28,140 nt of DNA from a virus. The position numbers and the translations under genes are program-made. The stretch covers positions 1-28,140 of the IMG/VR virus record IMGVR_UViG_3300034073_002611; one strand, written 5' to 3'. Position 1 is the stretch's first letter; each line of letters begins with the position of its first letter. Under the pieces are notes generated by a model. It did not search any database. It was not told where the DNA came from and saw only the letters and a list, made by a program, of their open reading frames with translations. Shown one piece after another: positions 1,462 through 16,140 of the stretch.

Positions 1462-1490
1462 ATTATACCCCGTAGTCTCACAAGTATCAA
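1462..1490 (-). promoter_or_regulatory. Sigma-70-like promoter, minus strand, with the -10 inside an inverted repeat
   Basis: Minus strand reads TTGATA, 17 nt, TATAAT. The -35 overlaps the last codons of the primase-like gene. A 7-bp inverted repeat, AGACTAC/GTAGTCT (1472-1478 and 1452-1458), flanks the -10 box, so this could be an operator or a 5' hairpin. It would serve the gene starting at 1418. Confidence 0.65.
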
Positions 1491-2602
1491 CCGATACAGA
1501 ATTCGTCACTAAGTTTATTTGCCAGCTCCTTTGCTGCACTACTTAGAAATCTATTATTGCTAAAGTACAGAGGTGTAGACACTTGATTAAGGAACTCCAC
1601 GACCGTTTTTAAAAGTTTGGTCTGTGACCCATCAAGGTTTAAATCCTCGTCAGGCAACGCAACGTCAGCGGTGCTGGTTGCTGATACGGGCATGGGATCG
1701 CCGTAGGCACGGTAGACCATATCGTTAGCCTGAGCATCACTCACCGTCCCCATAATGTGCTTGGCCTGATTCATCAGTTGATCATTTCTCAAATCGTTTA
1801 GAATTTGACTAGCAACATTCGCTGATACTGGTACGCCATTAGTGTCAGACTGCTTATAAGCCTTAGCATATCCCTTATACCATTCATCACTACACTTTTC
1901 AGGAATGATATTTAGCGTGGCCGGCTGGCCAGTAAGAGCAGACTTTAGATCGGCCACATTAATTGGTTGACCAGTACTGCCGGGAAGGATACTCGTAAAG
2001 TAAGGAGCTTTCTTTTCCCAGCCCTTACGCCACCAAGTATAAGGAACACGATAAATCTGATTAGCTTTAATCGCTCGTGGATCGCCGCCAAAATAATTTA
2101 CCAGCTTCTTTTGAAGACCATTCCAGAAAGTCTTATTGTTGCCAACAATCTTTCTACTAGCATCGTCAAAAAGCCAATAGCATTGATAGCCATTACGAGT
2201 ATCTACAACCCAACTTGGCTTAACAGGAAAATCATTAATCTTTTCCAAGAAACGCTTTTTGTGTTGCATAACTACACTGGGTTTGAAATAATTGCCTTCA
2301 TTATCACGACCAGCATCCATATCGCAAAAGCAACAAGTAAACTGATTGATGACATAAAGTTTACGGCCACCATTTACATAGAAGTACACATCAGCGCTTT
2401 GATCAACATTGGCTGTTAATGCTTCTTGGATGTCGTATGTGTGATTCATACTGCTAATCTTCTTACGAGGATTGCCATTATAACAAAAGATGTGTTTTTG
2501 CTTAAAAGAATCCAAAAACCTAGTTTGTGTTGAAGAAAACACGCTATCATAGGAATTATTCTGTTGAGCAAAAGGATTGAACCCAAGATTATCTTTAAAC
2601 AT
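1487..2602 (-). CDS. AEP superfamily (RepB/PrimPol-like) primase domain protein
   Basis: A 371-residue protein. Residues 80-195 match the archaeo-eukaryotic primase fold as used by RepB-like and phage primases: CFCDMDAGR at 91-99 gives the metal-binding DxD (D94, D96); PSWVVDTRNGYQCYWLF at 129-145 is the strand pair with the GYxxYW signature; and FGGDPRAIKANQIYRVPYT at 171-189 matches the D...RVP motif near the active site. The role would be RNA/DNA primer synthesis for phage replication. Oddly, the usual His of the GYHxYW motif is Gln140 here, which may change or abolish nucleotide binding. The C-terminal half is unrecognised and no helicase domain is attached. GAGGT lies upstream of the ATG. 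Confidence 0.75.
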   Translation of the reverse strand: MFKDNLGFNPFAQQNNSYDSVFSSTQTRFLDSFKQKHIFCYNGNPRKKISSMNHTYDIQEALTANVDQSADVYFYVNGGRKLYVINQFTCCFCDMDAGRDNEGNYFKPSVVMQHKKRFLEKINDFPVKPSWVVDTRNGYQCYWLFDDASRKIVGNNKTFWNGLQKKLVNYFGGDPRAIKANQIYRVPYTWWRKGWEKKAPYFTSILPGSTGQPINVADLKSALTGQPATLNIIPEKCSDEWYKGYAKAYKQSDTNGVPVSANVASQILNDLRNDQLMNQAKHIMGTVSDAQANDMVYRAYGDPMPVSATSTADVALPDEDLNLDGSQTKLLKTVVEFLNQVSTPLYFSNNRFLSSAAKELANKLSDEFCIG

Positions 2603-2673
2603 TTTTCTACCTCAAACTTCCTGCGAATAATATGATTGGGATACTAAACACTAGCATCAAAAGCAATCAAAAA

Positions 2674-2777
2674 AGATGATTATGGAATCGAACCATAAGA
2701 TTCTGTCGAGTGGTCTCCTAGACTTTATTTGTGGAATCGAACCACCACTCTGTCGAACCTGTCACCTAACATCATCT
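2674..2777 (-). ncRNA. Structured tRNA-like RNA with two T-arm-like hairpins (unknown class)
   Basis: Read on the minus strand, the 104-nt element opens with AGATGAT (2777-2771) and closes with the perfect complement ATCATCT (2680-2674), like a 7-bp acceptor stem. Just inside the 3' strand is a canonical T-arm, TATGG-TTCGATT-CCATA (2697-2681). In the middle is a second T-arm-like hairpin, GTGG-TTCGATT-CCAC (2745-2731), and a GTCT-AGG-AGAC hairpin. Both sit inside a GAGTG/CACTC stem, so the centre can fold as a three-way junction where the anticodon arm should be. I find no proper D-arm or anticodon arm. A run of six T follows the 3' strand (2675-2670), so it may also terminate rII transcripts. 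It could be a degenerate tRNA, a tRNA mimic or an unknown ncRNA. Confidence 0.55.
2716..2724 (-). repeat. AGTCTAGGA motif, copy 2 of 4
   Basis: Minus-strand 9-mer inside the tRNA-like RNA, where it forms part of the GTCT-AGG-AGAC hairpin. Confidence 0.55.
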
Positions 2778-2780
2778 TCG

Positions 2781-2801
2781 TCCTAGACTCTTTCGAGTCT
2801 A
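2781..2801 (-). other. Hairpin with GAAA tetraloop after rIIB, carrying AGTCTAGGA copy 3
   Basis: Minus strand TAGACTC-GAAA-GAGTCTA (2801-2784) is a 7-bp stem with a GNRA-type tetraloop, 10 nt after the rIIB stop. No T-run follows, so it is not a classical intrinsic terminator. It is more likely an RNA stability or processing element ahead of the structured RNA. Its 3' arm runs into the 9-mer AGTCTAGGA (2789-2781). Confidence 0.6.
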
Positions 2802-2811
2802 AAATTCTAAA

Positions 2812-3717
2812 TCAGCTATAAGAACCATACTCATCATAATCGTCGTCTTCATCGTGTGATGTCATACGAATATCTTCTGGATCGTCCTCGTAGTCTTCAT
2901 CCTCATCGTCATAACGATCCCAGTAAGCGTCATCGTACTCATCGTACAAATCTTCTTCGTCTTCGTTATATTCATCTTCGGCAAACTCGCTCTTGTAAAG
3001 AGGCTTGAGCAATTCGCCCTGATATTCTCCGACTACCTCATATCGACAGGTACGAAGTTTCTCGCAATTACAATCGCTAGGTACACTGACTACATCCTTC
3101 GGATTGATCTTGACTATCATAATATGATCACCATAATCAGCATTACCATAATTAGCAACATAGTTCAACGCACCAGCATGAAGACCATTAGAGCATCCTC
3201 TAGCACGATCATCGTCTACCTTTGCTCGTCGCATTTCGCAAACCTGACCAACACGATTATCAAATGTACCAGCATACTTATCCTTATAATCACTGCGAAC
3301 AGCCTTGTATGCTAGGAAATGTCCGTCCTCAGTAATCGGCAGATGTTCATGCTCCAAGAAATCGTACAGTTCCTTTTGACTCTGCATACTTGGATTCTCC
3401 ATAAGATTATTCAGGAAATTTACAAGAGGCTGAAAAGGCAGACCCTTGCTCATAAACTCCAGAATACGCTTACTGATACTACCATGAACTTCCTCGCCAT
3501 CAAACATTACCTTGCCGTTCTTAACCTCCACAAGACCGTCGCTAAAATTGCTAACAGCCTTTTCAATATCGACCAACTCTGCCAATTCGTCATTGGTAGC
3601 GGTTGGTAGTGCCTCCAGAATCAATCGATAATTAATATGATCTGGAAGAACCTGATGAGCCTTATTATTAAGGATCAGCGTCAAATTACCATCAACCCAC
3701 ATAAACGGAACACTCAT
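2812..3717 (-). CDS. rIIB: RIIB-like protein with a long acidic tail
   Basis: A 301-residue protein, close in length to T4 RIIB (about 312). It lies 26 bp downstream of the rIIA homologue, in the same order as in T4-type phages. The N-terminal VDGNLTLILNNKAHQV is followed by a helical region. Residues about 90-190 (FQPLVNFLNNLMENPS..., then LYDFLEHEHLPITEDGHFLAYKAV) match the core seen in RIIB-like proteins, and a YRYEV/VGEY-type end follows. In T4, RIIA and RIIB are membrane-associated and act in lysis inhibition and phage exclusion; the mechanism is unsettled. The last 55 residues are almost all Asp, Glu and Tyr, possibly DNA-mimicking or charge-repelling. AGGAG precedes the ATG. Confidence 0.85.
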   Translation of the reverse strand: MSVPFMWVDGNLTLILNNKAHQVLPDHINYRLILEALPTATNDELAELVDIEKAVSNFSDGLVEVKNGKVMFDGEEVHGSISKRILEFMSKGLPFQPLVNFLNNLMENPSMQSQKELYDFLEHEHLPITEDGHFLAYKAVRSDYKDKYAGTFDNRVGQVCEMRRAKVDDDRARGCSNGLHAGALNYVANYGNADYGDHIMIVKINPKDVVSVPSDCNCEKLRTCRYEVVGEYQGELLKPLYKSEFAEDEYNEDEEDLYDEYDDAYWDRYDDEDEDYEDDPEDIRMTSHDEDDDYDEYGSYS

Positions 3718-3743: not shown

Positions 3744-6395
3744 TTATTTAACCATACCACCCAAAAGATTTCTCATTTCTGCGATTTTGTCTTCACCCAA
3801 AGTCTTAAACCATTCTGGAGCCCCATAATAAGTGTTATGATGCATCAGCATTGGGTTGCTGGAAATCTGATCCAGACTCGACTCATTGCTATTGAAGACC
3901 ACACCAACAATATACTTCATCATCGCCACCTTGTCAACCTCAACTTTAAGATTTTTTCTGAGTTGCGTCATGGACGGCATACTCTTAATGAAATCTTCAC
4001 CTTGCTTTGACTTGACAACAATACTAGACGTATAATCTTCGTCATACAATGACGTTATATGATATTTGAGAGTCAGAAAGTCAGCATGAGATTGCTTGGC
4101 TTTCTCTGGATCAATACCATTCAAATTATGCTTCTCAAGAATCTCGGCCATAACAGCATAATATTCAGCTTTCGTACAAAACCTCATGTCAAAGTTGTTA
4201 TGCATAATCCTGGCAAAGAAATTGTATATCATCCACTTATCAAGTTGATCACAAAGAGTTGTGCCACCGATATAGTTCTTGTAGTTTATGCCGAAGATAT
4301 TAATTAGCTCCGTTGCGATCTTGCGATCACTCTTAACTCTATTGTAGTAATAGCGATCAGTTTTGTTTTCTTCAGCATCATACTGCTCTGTGCAATACTG
4401 TACAATATCTTTGTATACCGATACTTTGTCACAGAGTTTTTGCATAGACTTCTTAAGCTGTGGTTTAAACCAATCATTAAAATCCACCAGATCATAACCT
4501 TGCTTACGCAGTTTTTCCACGGAACTTTGCTTGATCGCAAAAATGTTTTGACTATCAAACAACTTGTTCAGACTATGTTTCTGATCTTTCATAATCCCAG
4601 TAATCTCAGAAATAGTTGGATAGTTTTGTGGAACAGCATATCGAATAATAGGAAGATAAATGATAGTTTCATCTTCAAGATCATTCAACATATCTTCTCC
4701 CAGTTCACGCAGATAAGAAGAATCGTTCAAGTCTTTTCCTTGCAATACATTCTTATTCTTTGCGTCTGGAGATGCCGACAGGATAAAGATTTCGTCAGCA
4801 CTAATTTGCCCGGTCTTATCTCTTGTCTTACTACGAGTTCCAGTTTGAAGTAGACTACGATAATCTGAGACATTTATTACATTTGATTCTCCACCGATAT
4901 CATTGATAAGATTATCAAAACCTTCAGTAGAATCTTCTGGAGTATCACTGTCCACCATAAGATAGGCATAACAATCATTTTGATTACAATATCTGGTTAC
5001 GATCTTCTTGGCGGTTTCGGCACTCTTAACATCACACCTGAAGAATACCATCTTGCCGCTCTTTTTCGCACCAGACCAATAGTATTCTGGAACTCCTTGC
5101 AGAGTTTGATAGTGAATCTTGTCTGTCAGATAAACCATCCTACGAGAGCGATAGCCAGCACTTCTAAAGTTAAAGGCATACAACTGCTTACTCTTTTTAA
5201 AAGTGTACTCAAGGTCTTTGCCGCTTTGCAATTCGTGAACTTTTCCACTAGGATCAGTCCAAGAAGCACCAGCAGTCCAACCACCAGCAAGATCACTAAG
5301 GTTATAATAGGTAGTATAAGCATCAATAAGGTTCGTACACTGCTCAAGTTTCTTGCTCATATCTTCCTTGAGTTGAAGATAAATGTCTTGAGTACGATCA
5401 CGCAGAACTTTAATTACATTCTTAGTGTACTGCAATCCCTCACGACTAACATCCATCTCAAGTTCACCAATATTAAATTGGATTTCAAGATACAGACCAG
5501 AGTTCAGAATCTCTCTGACTAGATTCTTCCAGTGATTGACATCTGCCTTCTTGAAGGTACGGTTCCATTTTTGGATAGCATCATTACTCTGCTCTTGTTC
5601 TTCTCCAATAATTTTATCGGCATTTACAGGGTATGCGATATTACCCATAATAGCAACAACACTACTACCCGTACTATGATGCTGGCTGGGATATTGATTA
5701 GAATTACCGGAAACCCTACCGATCTTCCAGCCATTGCCCTCAATAACCGCATTAACGTGAGAGTATGAATGATCTTCCAGACTTTGACACACTCCGCCTT
5801 CAATGATTGGCTTCATTTTGAAGTAGTGAAAAATACGCTTAGACTTGTTGGTAAACTCAACAAAATCATATTGCTTAACAGCAAATGAAATTTCAAGACC
5901 ATTAGGCTCATTAGTGTCACTAATGTTAAAAAGATTAAGACTAGGCACACCATTCTCATCCATAGCAGCAACATAAGAATACTTTTTGCCGTTATGATAA
6001 GAGGTTGTGCTAAAACTCTTGGTATAAGCAAACGGACTCTTACTGCCTAGCCCAAGACATCCAACAAAATCATTGCTGTCATTCTTATTACTAGCACCAT
6101 AAGTAGTATACAGTTCCTCCATATCTTGCTGACTAAGACCAGTACCATAATCACGCACCGTAAAAGATGGGTTGGCTTGTGTAGGTAGAATCACCTTAAA
6201 AGGATTCTTGTTGGCAGCAGCGATATGGGCATCATAAGCATTTGTAGAAAGTTCACGAATAACAGCCATAACCTTATCGGAATACAAAGAGTCCGAAAGG
6301 ATCTTGAACATTTTACTGGTCTGGGCAATAGTGAACTGATTACTGCTATCAAGACCACGGCTATGAATTTCAACGGTACGATCTGCCAACTTCAT
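3744..6395 (-). CDS. rIIA: RIIA-like GHKL ATPase
   Basis: An 883-residue protein with an N-terminal GHKL (Hsp90/MutL/histidine-kinase type) ATPase domain. The N-box is RELSTNAYDA (E48, N52, D55), the G1 box RDYGTGLS (D82, G84, G86), and the glycine-rich lid GCLGLGSKSPFAYT at 112-125. This domain and the rIIB neighbour identify it as an RIIA homologue; T4 RIIA is somewhat shorter (about 725), and the extra length is in the C-terminal part. The RIIA family affects the membrane and host energy state during infection. A strong sigma-70-like promoter lies 43 bp upstream and GGAG sits 10 nt before the ATG, so this gene opens a rIIA-rIIB transcription unit. Confidence 0.88.
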   Translation of the reverse strand: MKLADRTVEIHSRGLDSSNQFTIAQTSKMFKILSDSLYSDKVMAVIRELSTNAYDAHIAAANKNPFKVILPTQANPSFTVRDYGTGLSQQDMEELYTTYGASNKNDSNDFVGCLGLGSKSPFAYTKSFSTTSYHNGKKYSYVAAMDENGVPSLNLFNISDTNEPNGLEISFAVKQYDFVEFTNKSKRIFHYFKMKPIIEGGVCQSLEDHSYSHVNAVIEGNGWKIGRVSGNSNQYPSQHHSTGSSVVAIMGNIAYPVNADKIIGEEQEQSNDAIQKWNRTFKKADVNHWKNLVREILNSGLYLEIQFNIGELEMDVSREGLQYTKNVIKVLRDRTQDIYLQLKEDMSKKLEQCTNLIDAYTTYYNLSDLAGGWTAGASWTDPSGKVHELQSGKDLEYTFKKSKQLYAFNFRSAGYRSRRMVYLTDKIHYQTLQGVPEYYWSGAKKSGKMVFFRCDVKSAETAKKIVTRYCNQNDCYAYLMVDSDTPEDSTEGFDNLINDIGGESNVINVSDYRSLLQTGTRSKTRDKTGQISADEIFILSASPDAKNKNVLQGKDLNDSSYLRELGEDMLNDLEDETIIYLPIIRYAVPQNYPTISEITGIMKDQKHSLNKLFDSQNIFAIKQSSVEKLRKQGYDLVDFNDWFKPQLKKSMQKLCDKVSVYKDIVQYCTEQYDAEENKTDRYYYNRVKSDRKIATELINIFGINYKNYIGGTTLCDQLDKWMIYNFFARIMHNNFDMRFCTKAEYYAVMAEILEKHNLNGIDPEKAKQSHADFLTLKYHITSLYDEDYTSSIVVKSKQGEDFIKSMPSMTQLRKNLKVEVDKVAMMKYIVGVVFNSNESSLDQISSNPMLMHHNTYYGAPEWFKTLGEDKIAEMRNLLGGMVK

Positions 6396-9252: not shown

Positions 9253-9711
9253 ATGAATAAAAAACATCATTATACCGAAAAAAACCTGTCTAAAATTTGT
9301 TCAGAATCTTTTAGTTACAGTCAATGTTTACAAAAAATGGGAATAGTTCCTGCTGGTGGAAATTATGCTATATTAAAAAAATACATCAAACTTTACAATA
9401 TTGATATTTCTCATTTTACTTTACAGGCTTGGAATAGAGGTAAAACTCTGCCGCCAAAACGATCTTTAGAAGATTATCTCTCAAATAAAAAAGCCATTCA
9501 AAGCTATAAACTAAAAAAGAGACTCTTAAAAGAAAAAGTATTTCAGCATCAATGCAATAATTGTTGTAAAAATACTTGGTTAGGAAAACCAATTCCACTA
9601 GAACTACATCATTTAGACGGCAATAGTTTGAATAATAATTTAAATAACCTTTCTTTGCTTTGTCCCAATTGTCATGCTTTAACCGATAATTATAGAGCAA
9701 AAAATAAATAG
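9253..9711 (+). CDS. Free-standing HNH homing-type endonuclease
   Basis: A 152-residue protein. The N-terminal 60 residues look like a DNA-binding region (CLQKMGIVPAGGNYAILKKYI helix-turn type). The HNH nuclease occupies about 98-145: C101-N-N-C104, then LELHHLDGNSLNNNLNNLSLLCPNCH with H119/H120, the Asn of the NNLSLL turn, and C137/C140 plus H141. Zinc-ribbon HNH enzymes of this kind act as mobile homing endonucleases in phages. GGAGG lies 6 nt before the ATG. The stop overlaps the 3' end of the intron-containing tRNA gene by 3 bp on the opposite strand, which suggests a link to intron mobility. Confidence 0.85.
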   Translation: MNKKHHYTEKNLSKICSESFSYSQCLQKMGIVPAGGNYAILKKYIKLYNIDISHFTLQAWNRGKTLPPKRSLEDYLSNKKAIQSYKLKKRLLKEKVFQHQCNNCCKNTWLGKPIPLELHHLDGNSLNNNLNNLSLLCPNCHALTDNYRAKNK

Positions 9712-9988
9712 GAGCAGAGGGAATCGAACCCTCACTGTATGGATTTTCGTACCACTATAGTTTTCACTACCATTGCTGTTTGTGGTCTGGACTTTACCTT
9801 AACCATAGTTATTTAAACTTTAGGTTCCTGCCGTCAAGTCTCTACACCTTCATATTTAATATGCTTGGCTCGGTATTAGCATTTTAAAGCCTTCACCGAA
9901 TTTGACAGGTTCTACTTAAAAAGTTTCCTTTCTAGCACTCAATTTAACGAAAAAAGTCCATTGCCTCTGCCTGTTGGGCTATGCTCCC
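9709..9988 (-). tRNA. tRNA split by a group I intron; predicted anticodon UAA (Leu)
   Basis: Exon 1 (9988-9954) gives acceptor GGGAGCA, UA at positions 8-9, a D-arm with the GG pair, and anticodon stem AUGGA followed by CUU. Exon 2 (9747-9709) gives AAAA, stem UCCAU, a 5-nt variable loop ACAGU, T-arm GAGGG-UUCGAUU-CCCUC, acceptor UGCUCCU (one G-U pair) and discriminator A. CCA is not encoded. Joining at the intron borders yields loop CUUAAAA, anticodon UAA, for leucine. The short class-I variable loop is unusual for bacterial tRNA-Leu. If the borders are off by two bases the loop could read CUUUUAA (UUU, Lys), but then the intron would not end in G. Confidence 0.85.
9748..9953 (-). other. Group I intron, 206 nt, in the tRNA anticodon loop
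   Basis: The intron core elements are readable on the minus strand. UUCGGUGAAGGC (9900-9889) matches element P, AAUACCGAGCCAAGC (9877-9863) matches Q, GUAGAGACUUGACGG (9845-9831) matches R, and AAAGUCCAGACCAC (9795-9782) matches S; GACUU of R pairs with AAGUC of S as P7. Exon-1 ACUU can pair with intron GAGU so that the splice-site U forms the required U-G wobble, and the intron ends in G. The insertion point, after U34 of a UAA anticodon, is the same as in the well-known cyanobacterial and plastid tRNA-Leu introns. It contains no open frame; the neighbouring HNH gene may supply mobility. Confidence 0.88.
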
Positions 9989-15779: not shown

Positions 15780-15786
15780 ATAATAT

Positions 15787-16140
15787 TGGAGGCGGGGGAA
15801 GTCGAATCCCCGTCTTGCGATATTGCTAATTACATATTCTACAAGTTTATTTTGTTCATAAAATTTTAAGAAAAGTTAAAGAACAAACAACATTTACTTT
15901 TCCGTACCAACTAATCTCAGGCTAGAACCCGTTGGCTATCCTAGCAGCCGAAGGATTTTACGACAATCTTTTGAACGCTACCTTCATCGCTTTCTAAGAT
16001 TGTTGCTGCTATTTATTAAGCAGCAAGGGCTAACTGATTTGTGCCAGTTAAAGCATTTAGTAGACTTTTAAAGTGGCCCGTCCACCAACCACTACTTGCT
16101 AACATAATCTTCTATATCCAATCGATACCTTTACGCCCCC
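15787..16140 (-). ncRNA. ssrA: Transfer-messenger RNA (tmRNA)
   Basis: A complete tmRNA of 354 nt on the minus strand. The 5' GGGGGCG and 3' CGCCTCC pair as a 7-bp acceptor stem with one G-U, and the T-arm is GGGGA-TTCGACT-TCCCC. The discriminator is A and CCA is not encoded. The tag frame reads ALTGTNQLALAA if the resume codon is GCU, then UAA UAA. The LALAA end is the usual degradation signal recognised by ClpXP/ClpAP. The stops lie in the loop of the helix TGCTGC/GCAGCA, as in bacterial tmRNA, followed by a long pseudoknot region. It would rescue stalled ribosomes and tag incomplete proteins with a phage-specific tag. The exact resume codon is not certain. Confidence 0.93.

Follow-up and report, generated by a model that had tools for sequence, protein, structure and literature searches.

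The spacer behind the gene rIIB in an uncultured large phage raises the question of what RNA is encoded there and what this RNA may do for the virus. The window considered here, i.e., the whole analysed stretch of 28,140 nucleotides from the IMG/VR record IMGVR_UViG_3300034073_002611, contains a spacer of 209 bp between rIIB and a primase-like gene, and this spacer is partly filled by a tRNA-like element. A preliminary description, made from the letters of the sequence, had reported an unusual RNA with two T-arms at this place and offered two readings of it, a tRNA mimic that recruits T-loop-binding or CCA-adding enzymes and a degraded tRNA.

Both the element and the main genes around it are carried by the minus strand. 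The primase-like gene is assigned only weakly, having neither a Pfam match nor a PDB match of note. Just before its stop codon, rIIB encodes a C-terminus rich in acidic residues (window 2812-2950, minus strand), as do its relatives. Near and distant DNA searches and a search with the primase protein gave no record of a direct phage relative, and relatives of rIIB exist. A plus-strand reading of the element was rejected, since the fold is weaker there (z=-0.86 vs z=-2.30 on the minus strand in single-sequence folding) and the neighbouring genes lie on the minus strand. Taken alone, the folding z-score is weak, only mildly unusual evidence, and several single-sequence folds of relatives have unremarkable values (-0.04 for L052 and -0.37 for L095); it is the conservation that is decisive.

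All parts named in the preliminary description, including the 7-bp acceptor-like stem, two T-arms with the loop TTCGATT, the GAGTG/CACTC stem and a further hairpin, were found on the minus strand (Table 1), and the three-way junction in place of an anticodon arm was confirmed. The description was incomplete: it missed the strand, the D-like hairpins D1 and D2, the GGTTC/GAATC stem, the symmetric GACA/GACA internal loop that separates this stem from GAGTG/CACTC, the link with rIIB and the place of the two-T-arm form in a broader family, most of whose members possess only one T-arm. D2 stands 3' of its T-arm, T2, that is, in permuted order. A pair of A(-1) with U73 extends the window element to 2673-2778. 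The GAAA (GNRA) hairpin before the element and the T-run after it are also present; the hairpin lies outside the conserved core, because the gap from the rIIB stop codon to the acceptor stem is shorter than 30 nt, and thus too short for it, in 54 of 66 sequences.

Table 1. Features of the tRNA-like element and its surroundings in the window, in the order of transcription
Feature	Position	Strand	Evidence or remark
rIIB gene, directly upstream of the tRNA-like element	2812..3717	minus	phrog_609, E=1.8e-72; linkage
Optional upstream hairpin TAGACTC-GAAA-GAGTCTA	2784..2801	minus	no room in most relatives; not core
Whole tRNA-like element, 104 nt	2674..2777	minus	R1 match 2670-2780 (minus), 30.8 bits, E=2.7e-6; fold
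Acceptor-like stem, 5' strand AGATGAT	2771..2777	minus	7/7 pairs with 2674-2680
D1, small D-like hairpin GTT-AGGT-GAC (GTTAGGTGAC), GG in loop, directly 3' of the acceptor 5' strand	2761..2770	minus	fold; window-type alignment
Inner-domain stem, 5' strand GGTTC, partner GAATC 2699-2703	2755..2759	minus	both-side changes at two pairs
Inner stem, 5' strand GAGTG, partner CACTC 2708-2712	2746..2750	minus	window-type alignment; RNAalifold; fold
T2, inner T-arm GTGG-TTCGATT-CCAC	2731..2745	minus	stem covaries: GTGG/CCAC, GCGG/CCGC, GCAG/CTGC
D2, inner D-like hairpin GTC-TAGGA-GAC	2713..2723	minus	window-type alignment; RNAalifold; two cells unpaired in L095/L075
Inner stem, 3' strand CACTC	2708..2712	minus	window-type alignment; RNAalifold
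Inner-domain stem, 3' strand GAATC	2699..2703	minus	window-type alignment
T1, outer T-arm TATGG-TTCGATT-CCATA	2681..2697	minus	T-loop TTCGA[TC][TC] closed by G-C in 66/66 sequences, window included
Acceptor-like stem, 3' strand ATCATCT, then U-run, no CCA	2674..2680	minus	
Leader hairpin of the primase-like gene	2633..2669	minus	A6 covariation; R2 match 2632-2670
Primase/polymerase-like gene, downstream, weak assignment	1487..2602	minus	phrog_2478, E=3.8e-5

Using the rIIB and primase proteins, 152 loci were drawn from IMG/VR, and 65 distinct rIIB-primase spacers were excised from them (L055, with a partial primase match, was excluded). A T-loop TTCGA[TC][TC] with its T-stem and an acceptor-like partner upstream was present in all 65. 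The core common to them is made up of an acceptor stem, a very small D-like hairpin and a T-arm; the anticodon region varies or is lacking, and no subtype has an anticodon. The D-hairpin occupies the same place in nearly all subtypes; a D-stem is not clear in L036, L120 and L092, which are of one type and are off by one in the boundary table, the boundaries having been set by eye. The GG of this hairpin was counted in 66/66 sequences, a weak count because of the loose search window. The subtypes differ in length: about 45-50 nt, where almost nothing separates the D-hairpin from the T-arm; 59-63 nt; 82-91 nt, where the anticodon side carries a single long stem; and 104-118 nt, the class of the window element. 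The arrangement with two T-arms is one subtype. The stacked acceptor/T-arm helix has about 11-13 bp across the family and is interrupted by a bulged A in the shortest forms. Nucleotides +1 and -1 are both usually A.

A pattern scan of viral sequences returned 36 loci, comprising 24 tRNA-like elements, seven ordinary tRNAs and five copies of an unexplained element of tRNA clusters. In the phage contigs L159, L164, L165, L188 and L189, an odd tRNA-cluster RNA combines a D-like part AGTCTGGTGACT with a long hairpin rich in A and T, a T-arm and an encoded CCA; ARAGORN does not call it, and an Rfam search of L189 gives only the neighbouring tRNA. A broader pattern with two T-arms found window-type elements together with loci that resemble neighbouring tRNAs by eye (L224-L226, L228 and L229). 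Seven loci from a scan of genome contigs, all from Bradyrhizobium, were rejected as chance sharing of the motif, each being tRNA-Tyr by ARAGORN.

The paired architecture was examined in three alignments: A1, with 40 of the 65 distinct elements and the window, near-identical ones having been removed; A2, with 24 elements, all of the AGTC-TGG-GACT type (17 taken from the spacers and 7 from the pattern scan), without the window; and A4, with seven window-type elements, of which L003 is cut by a contig end. In A2, 92.1% of cells in the acceptor, D and T helices were paired vs 43.5-55.6% with the partner slid by 1-3 columns. Changes on both sides were found at 7/7 acceptor pairs and three T-stem pairs, the D-stem being invariant within the type, and RNAalifold recovered the same three helices without a supplied structure. 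For the window subtype, 97.1% of cells were paired vs 35-51% after sliding, and both partners had changed at seven pairs, two of them in the inner T-stem and two more in the stem GGTTC/GAATC; one acceptor pair is changed in this way in L075. The covariation of stems, which had been set beforehand as the test of the preliminary description, was therefore observed in both sets. RNAalifold found all helices of this subtype except D1. In both L095 and L075, the D2 hairpin has one broken pair and the single-sequence fold lacks the nested stem; the inner elbow is thus likely, though not as well secured as the outer elbow.

A covariance model, R1, was built from the 24 A2 elements with the window left out and matched the window element in a search of 118 kb (Table 1). 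It also matched the other subtypes, the minimal forms weakly (E about 0.02-0.2). An R1 match was found directly after rIIB in 69 of 80 rIIB loci, 43 of them at E<=0.01 and 26 between 0.02 and 1.3; L003 and L020 are partial, L040 is itself in the model, and L073 and L080 are of the same type as the model row L094. One of the other 11 loci stops at the stop codon, which leaves 10 of 79 testable loci without the element. In the spacer set, the acceptor stem starts 4-41 nt past the rIIB stop codon. The primase gene is not next in six loci (L161, L162, L170, L172, L175 and L176), and the element still lies 3' of rIIB in them; because it persists there without the primase gene, it is a 3' UTR element of rIIB.

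The element is also a single-copy one. Among 15 large phage records, R1 found one element beside rIIB in 14, the exception (G015/L017) having a plain hairpin. Eighteen other R1 matches were fetched: 16 proved to be tRNA genes by ARAGORN, one of them of undetermined type; of the other two, one is unclassified and one represents the 3' half of a tRNA interrupted by a group I intron. In seven loci (L217-L223) from two T4-like phages, KVP40, MIJ3, a Microcystis phage, a Citromicrobium phage and a 595-kb uncultured phage, no R1 match follows rIIB, and one weak match in L222 lies elsewhere. The window itself carries, at about 9706-9981 on the minus strand, a tRNA gene with a group I intron in the anticodon loop (RF00028 at 9767-9963) that is missed by ARAGORN, and L216 holds the 3' half of a similar intron-bearing tRNA.

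Comparison with known RNA families confirmed that the element does not fit tRNA, tmRNA or an intron-bearing tRNA. Rfam searches of the window, 16 loci, L144 and L189 gave nothing above threshold for it. Some tRNA features are complete in the window (7/7 pairs in the 7-bp acceptor, 5/5 in the 5-bp T-stem and a 7-nt T-loop), and the anticodon stem-loop with its 7-nt loop is absent in the short forms and replaced in the others; the window element stays below the Rfam (RF00005) and ARAGORN thresholds, and ARAGORN calls no tRNA there. The full tmRNA model (RF00023) does not match the element, and cyano_tmRNA aligns below threshold to the T-arm of L144 (17.7 bits against 70). The only RF00023 match in the window is a separate phage-encoded tmRNA without CCA at 15784-16140 (minus strand), whose tag ends in LALAA by eye; a full tmRNA is also present in 8 of 14 related phage records. 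No Rfam match to Y RNA or YrlA was found, and a TROVE protein was found in none of 14 phage records (0/14). R1 does not match rnaC, the T4 species 1 RNA, in L154.

The closest anatomy is that of mascRNA and menRNA, located at the 3' ends of human MALAT1 and MENbeta. According to PMC11693755, these RNAs have an acceptor stem, a T-arm and a reduced D-hairpin whose two conserved G residues build the elbow; junction linkers and an anticodon are missing, the stem on the anticodon side varies, and CCA is not encoded. The phage element shares these features, its elbow being a predicted one, apart from the three loci without a clear D-stem. The same paper places mascRNA and menRNA at the 3' end of a longer transcript and describes their processing by RNase P, then by RNase Z, and then by CCA addition. 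The phage element, which directly follows the rIIB stop codon, may have a comparable place in its transcript. Unlike them, the phage element occurs in a bacterial setting and in the 3' UTR of a coding gene, its processing is a prediction, some members have no anticodon-side stem, and the window subtype has a nested second elbow. The resemblance is taken to be convergent.

From this likeness in anatomy to known substrates of RNase P and RNase Z, we infer that the element, a conserved family in the rIIB 3' UTR of uncultured large phages, may be the place where these two host enzymes cut the rIIB-primase transcript, and we give this reading an even chance. In its general form, it is the tRNA mimic of the preliminary description, which we rate as the best reading. 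The element would keep only what tRNA-maturation enzymes read, i.e., the acceptor/T-arm stack, the T-loop and a mini D-hairpin whose GG would pair into the T-loop to form a tRNA elbow, and it lacks the part read by the ribosome and synthetases, having neither an anticodon nor an encoded CCA. Host RNase P would cut 5' of the acceptor stem and host RNase Z after the discriminator. Such cuts would set where the rIIB message ends, a few to about 40 nt past the stop codon, and would release the downstream message, which would then open with a conserved hairpin of its own at the new 5' end. In the window subtype, the stem bearing the second T-arm and D-hairpin in place of the anticodon arm would form a second, permuted elbow.

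In PMC4919913, RNase P is described as binding the T-arm/acceptor stack and measuring from the elbow, and RNase Z as trimming precursors that lack CCA. RNase P has also been reported to cut phage RNAs and mRNAs, among them the C4 antisense RNA of P1/P7, M3 RNA and the T4 gene 32 mRNA (PMC11143913). Encoded CCA is also missing from the tRNA-Gly and tmRNA of the window, and a search of 14 phage records for a CCA-adding enzyme gave none, so the host enzymes would do this work. Several points speak against the cleavage reading: A(-1) is able to pair with U73, so the RNase P site could move or be hindered; position +1 is usually A; the minimal forms have a bulge; and ten rIIB relatives have no element.

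In a second explanation, the element is a plain 3' UTR structure, a stable fold that needs no tRNA enzyme and either shields the rIIB message at its 3' end or halts ribosomes or RNA polymerase. In five close rIIB relatives (L017, after position 5837, L019, L054, L062 and L077), a long plain hairpin replaces the element at the same place, and in five others (L056, L061, L076, L078 and L081) no obvious structure was found after rIIB; hence the tRNA fold is not the sole solution. A short T-run after many copies points the same way. However, these runs are short or absent in several loci (L115 and the L052 class), and a scan of 2500-3000 for intrinsic terminators gave none on the minus strand. Moreover, the near-invariant T-loop and the D-hairpin are kept amid large changes elsewhere, and stability alone needs neither. 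In our opinion, such a structure is a rather unlikely explanation.

It is likewise unlikely that the element acts in trans as a stable small RNA, a decoy for proteins that bind the elbow (RNase P, RNase Z, enzymes that modify T-loops or a CCA-adding enzyme) or for host defence nucleases that attack tRNA, to which it would offer no anticodon to cut. A covarying fold with a freely varying non-elbow part and the lack of an anticodon in all subtypes would suit a decoy, and the double-elbow subtype would provide two binding sites. A weak promoter-like match inside the rIIB end also makes a separate transcript possible. Against this, the element is a single copy and always stands right behind rIIB, at a distance from the stop codon that leaves little room for a promoter and makes one of its own unlikely, so a role in cis fits better.

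A role of the DNA or RNA shape as a primer, packaging or recombination site, e.g., in replication via the neighbouring primase-like gene, is very improbable: this gene adjoins the element in most relatives, partly since it was used to find them, but the element persists without it, and acceptor-type covariation with G-U pairs points to RNA. A functionless relic of a decayed tRNA gene, the other suggestion of the preliminary description, is scarcely credible: this phage group carries real tRNAs that R1 scores weakly, which would suit a relic, but compensatory changes at all seven acceptor pairs contradict decay, the T-loop is near-invariant, and dozens of divergent versions, with the element in 69 of 80 loci, keep the paired architecture. 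Cleavage of the rIIB transcript by host RNase P and RNase Z is the reading that we prefer.

The released downstream message would begin near another structure, the leader hairpin of the primase-like gene. Its 8-bp inner stem, closed by a triloop, is separated from an outer stem by an internal loop with five unpaired nucleotides in the 5' strand and a single C in the 3' strand. Alignment A6 comprised 34 sequences (33 of 46 distinct hairpin candidates and the window, after exclusion of 40-nt forms, poorly fitting candidates and some of the near-duplicates), in which 97.5% of cells were paired vs 33-52% after sliding and 11 pairs changed on both sides. Model R2 gave a single match to the hairpin in each of 12 out of 15 phage records, as well as a single match in the window, and there was no Rfam match for it. 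In six relatives it was lost along with the primase gene, which indicates that it is the leader of that gene. It looks like an RNA element in its own right and is perhaps a protein-binding operator or a guard of the processed 5' end.

Other known systems are further from the element. T4 species 1 RNA, an annotated small stable RNA that bears a tRNA T-arm close to its 3' end, is a phage RNA of a more loosely similar kind; it differs in being encoded in a tRNA cluster, in its overall fold and in the lack of an R1 match. The tRNA-like domain of tmRNA also has an acceptor, a T-arm, a small D-region and no anticodon, but the phage element has neither a reading frame nor pseudoknots, and the window has a separate true tmRNA. 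Viral tRNA-like structures of the TYMV type are tRNA mimics in the 3' UTR of a viral message as well; their acceptor is formed by a pseudoknot and they are aminoacylated, whereas the acceptor of the phage element is an ordinary long-range stem.

The literature searched, which took in few subscription papers, listed no comparable phage element. To our knowledge, P1/P7 C4, M3 RNA and T4 gene 32 mRNA are not recognized as elbow families in 3' UTRs, and we know of no natural tRNA elbows smaller than the forms of about 45-50 nt and of no described tRNA-like RNA with two T-loop/D-loop pairs, the inner one permuted. We see in it a new form of tRNA mimic, carried by phages in a 3' UTR, one subtype of which has a nested double elbow. 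More tentatively, it can be proposed that a new family of phage RNAs uses elbows of about 45-50 nt, made of an acceptor, a mini D-hairpin and a T-arm, as a removable 3'-UTR tag that would borrow host RNase P and RNase Z to cut messages, and that the window subtype evolved a nested double elbow, the inner one permuted.

The molecular role of rIIB, one of the classic genes of phages, is as far as we know still obscure, and with this family the gene would gain a conserved element of post-transcriptional control. The natural series from forms of about 45 nt to the nested double elbow would serve as a panel on the needs of RNase P, RNase Z and other readers of the elbow. If the proposed reading is true, the element would be a phage counterpart of mascRNA, independently reached, and elbow mimicry would be a general route to recruit tRNA-maturation enzymes to messages.
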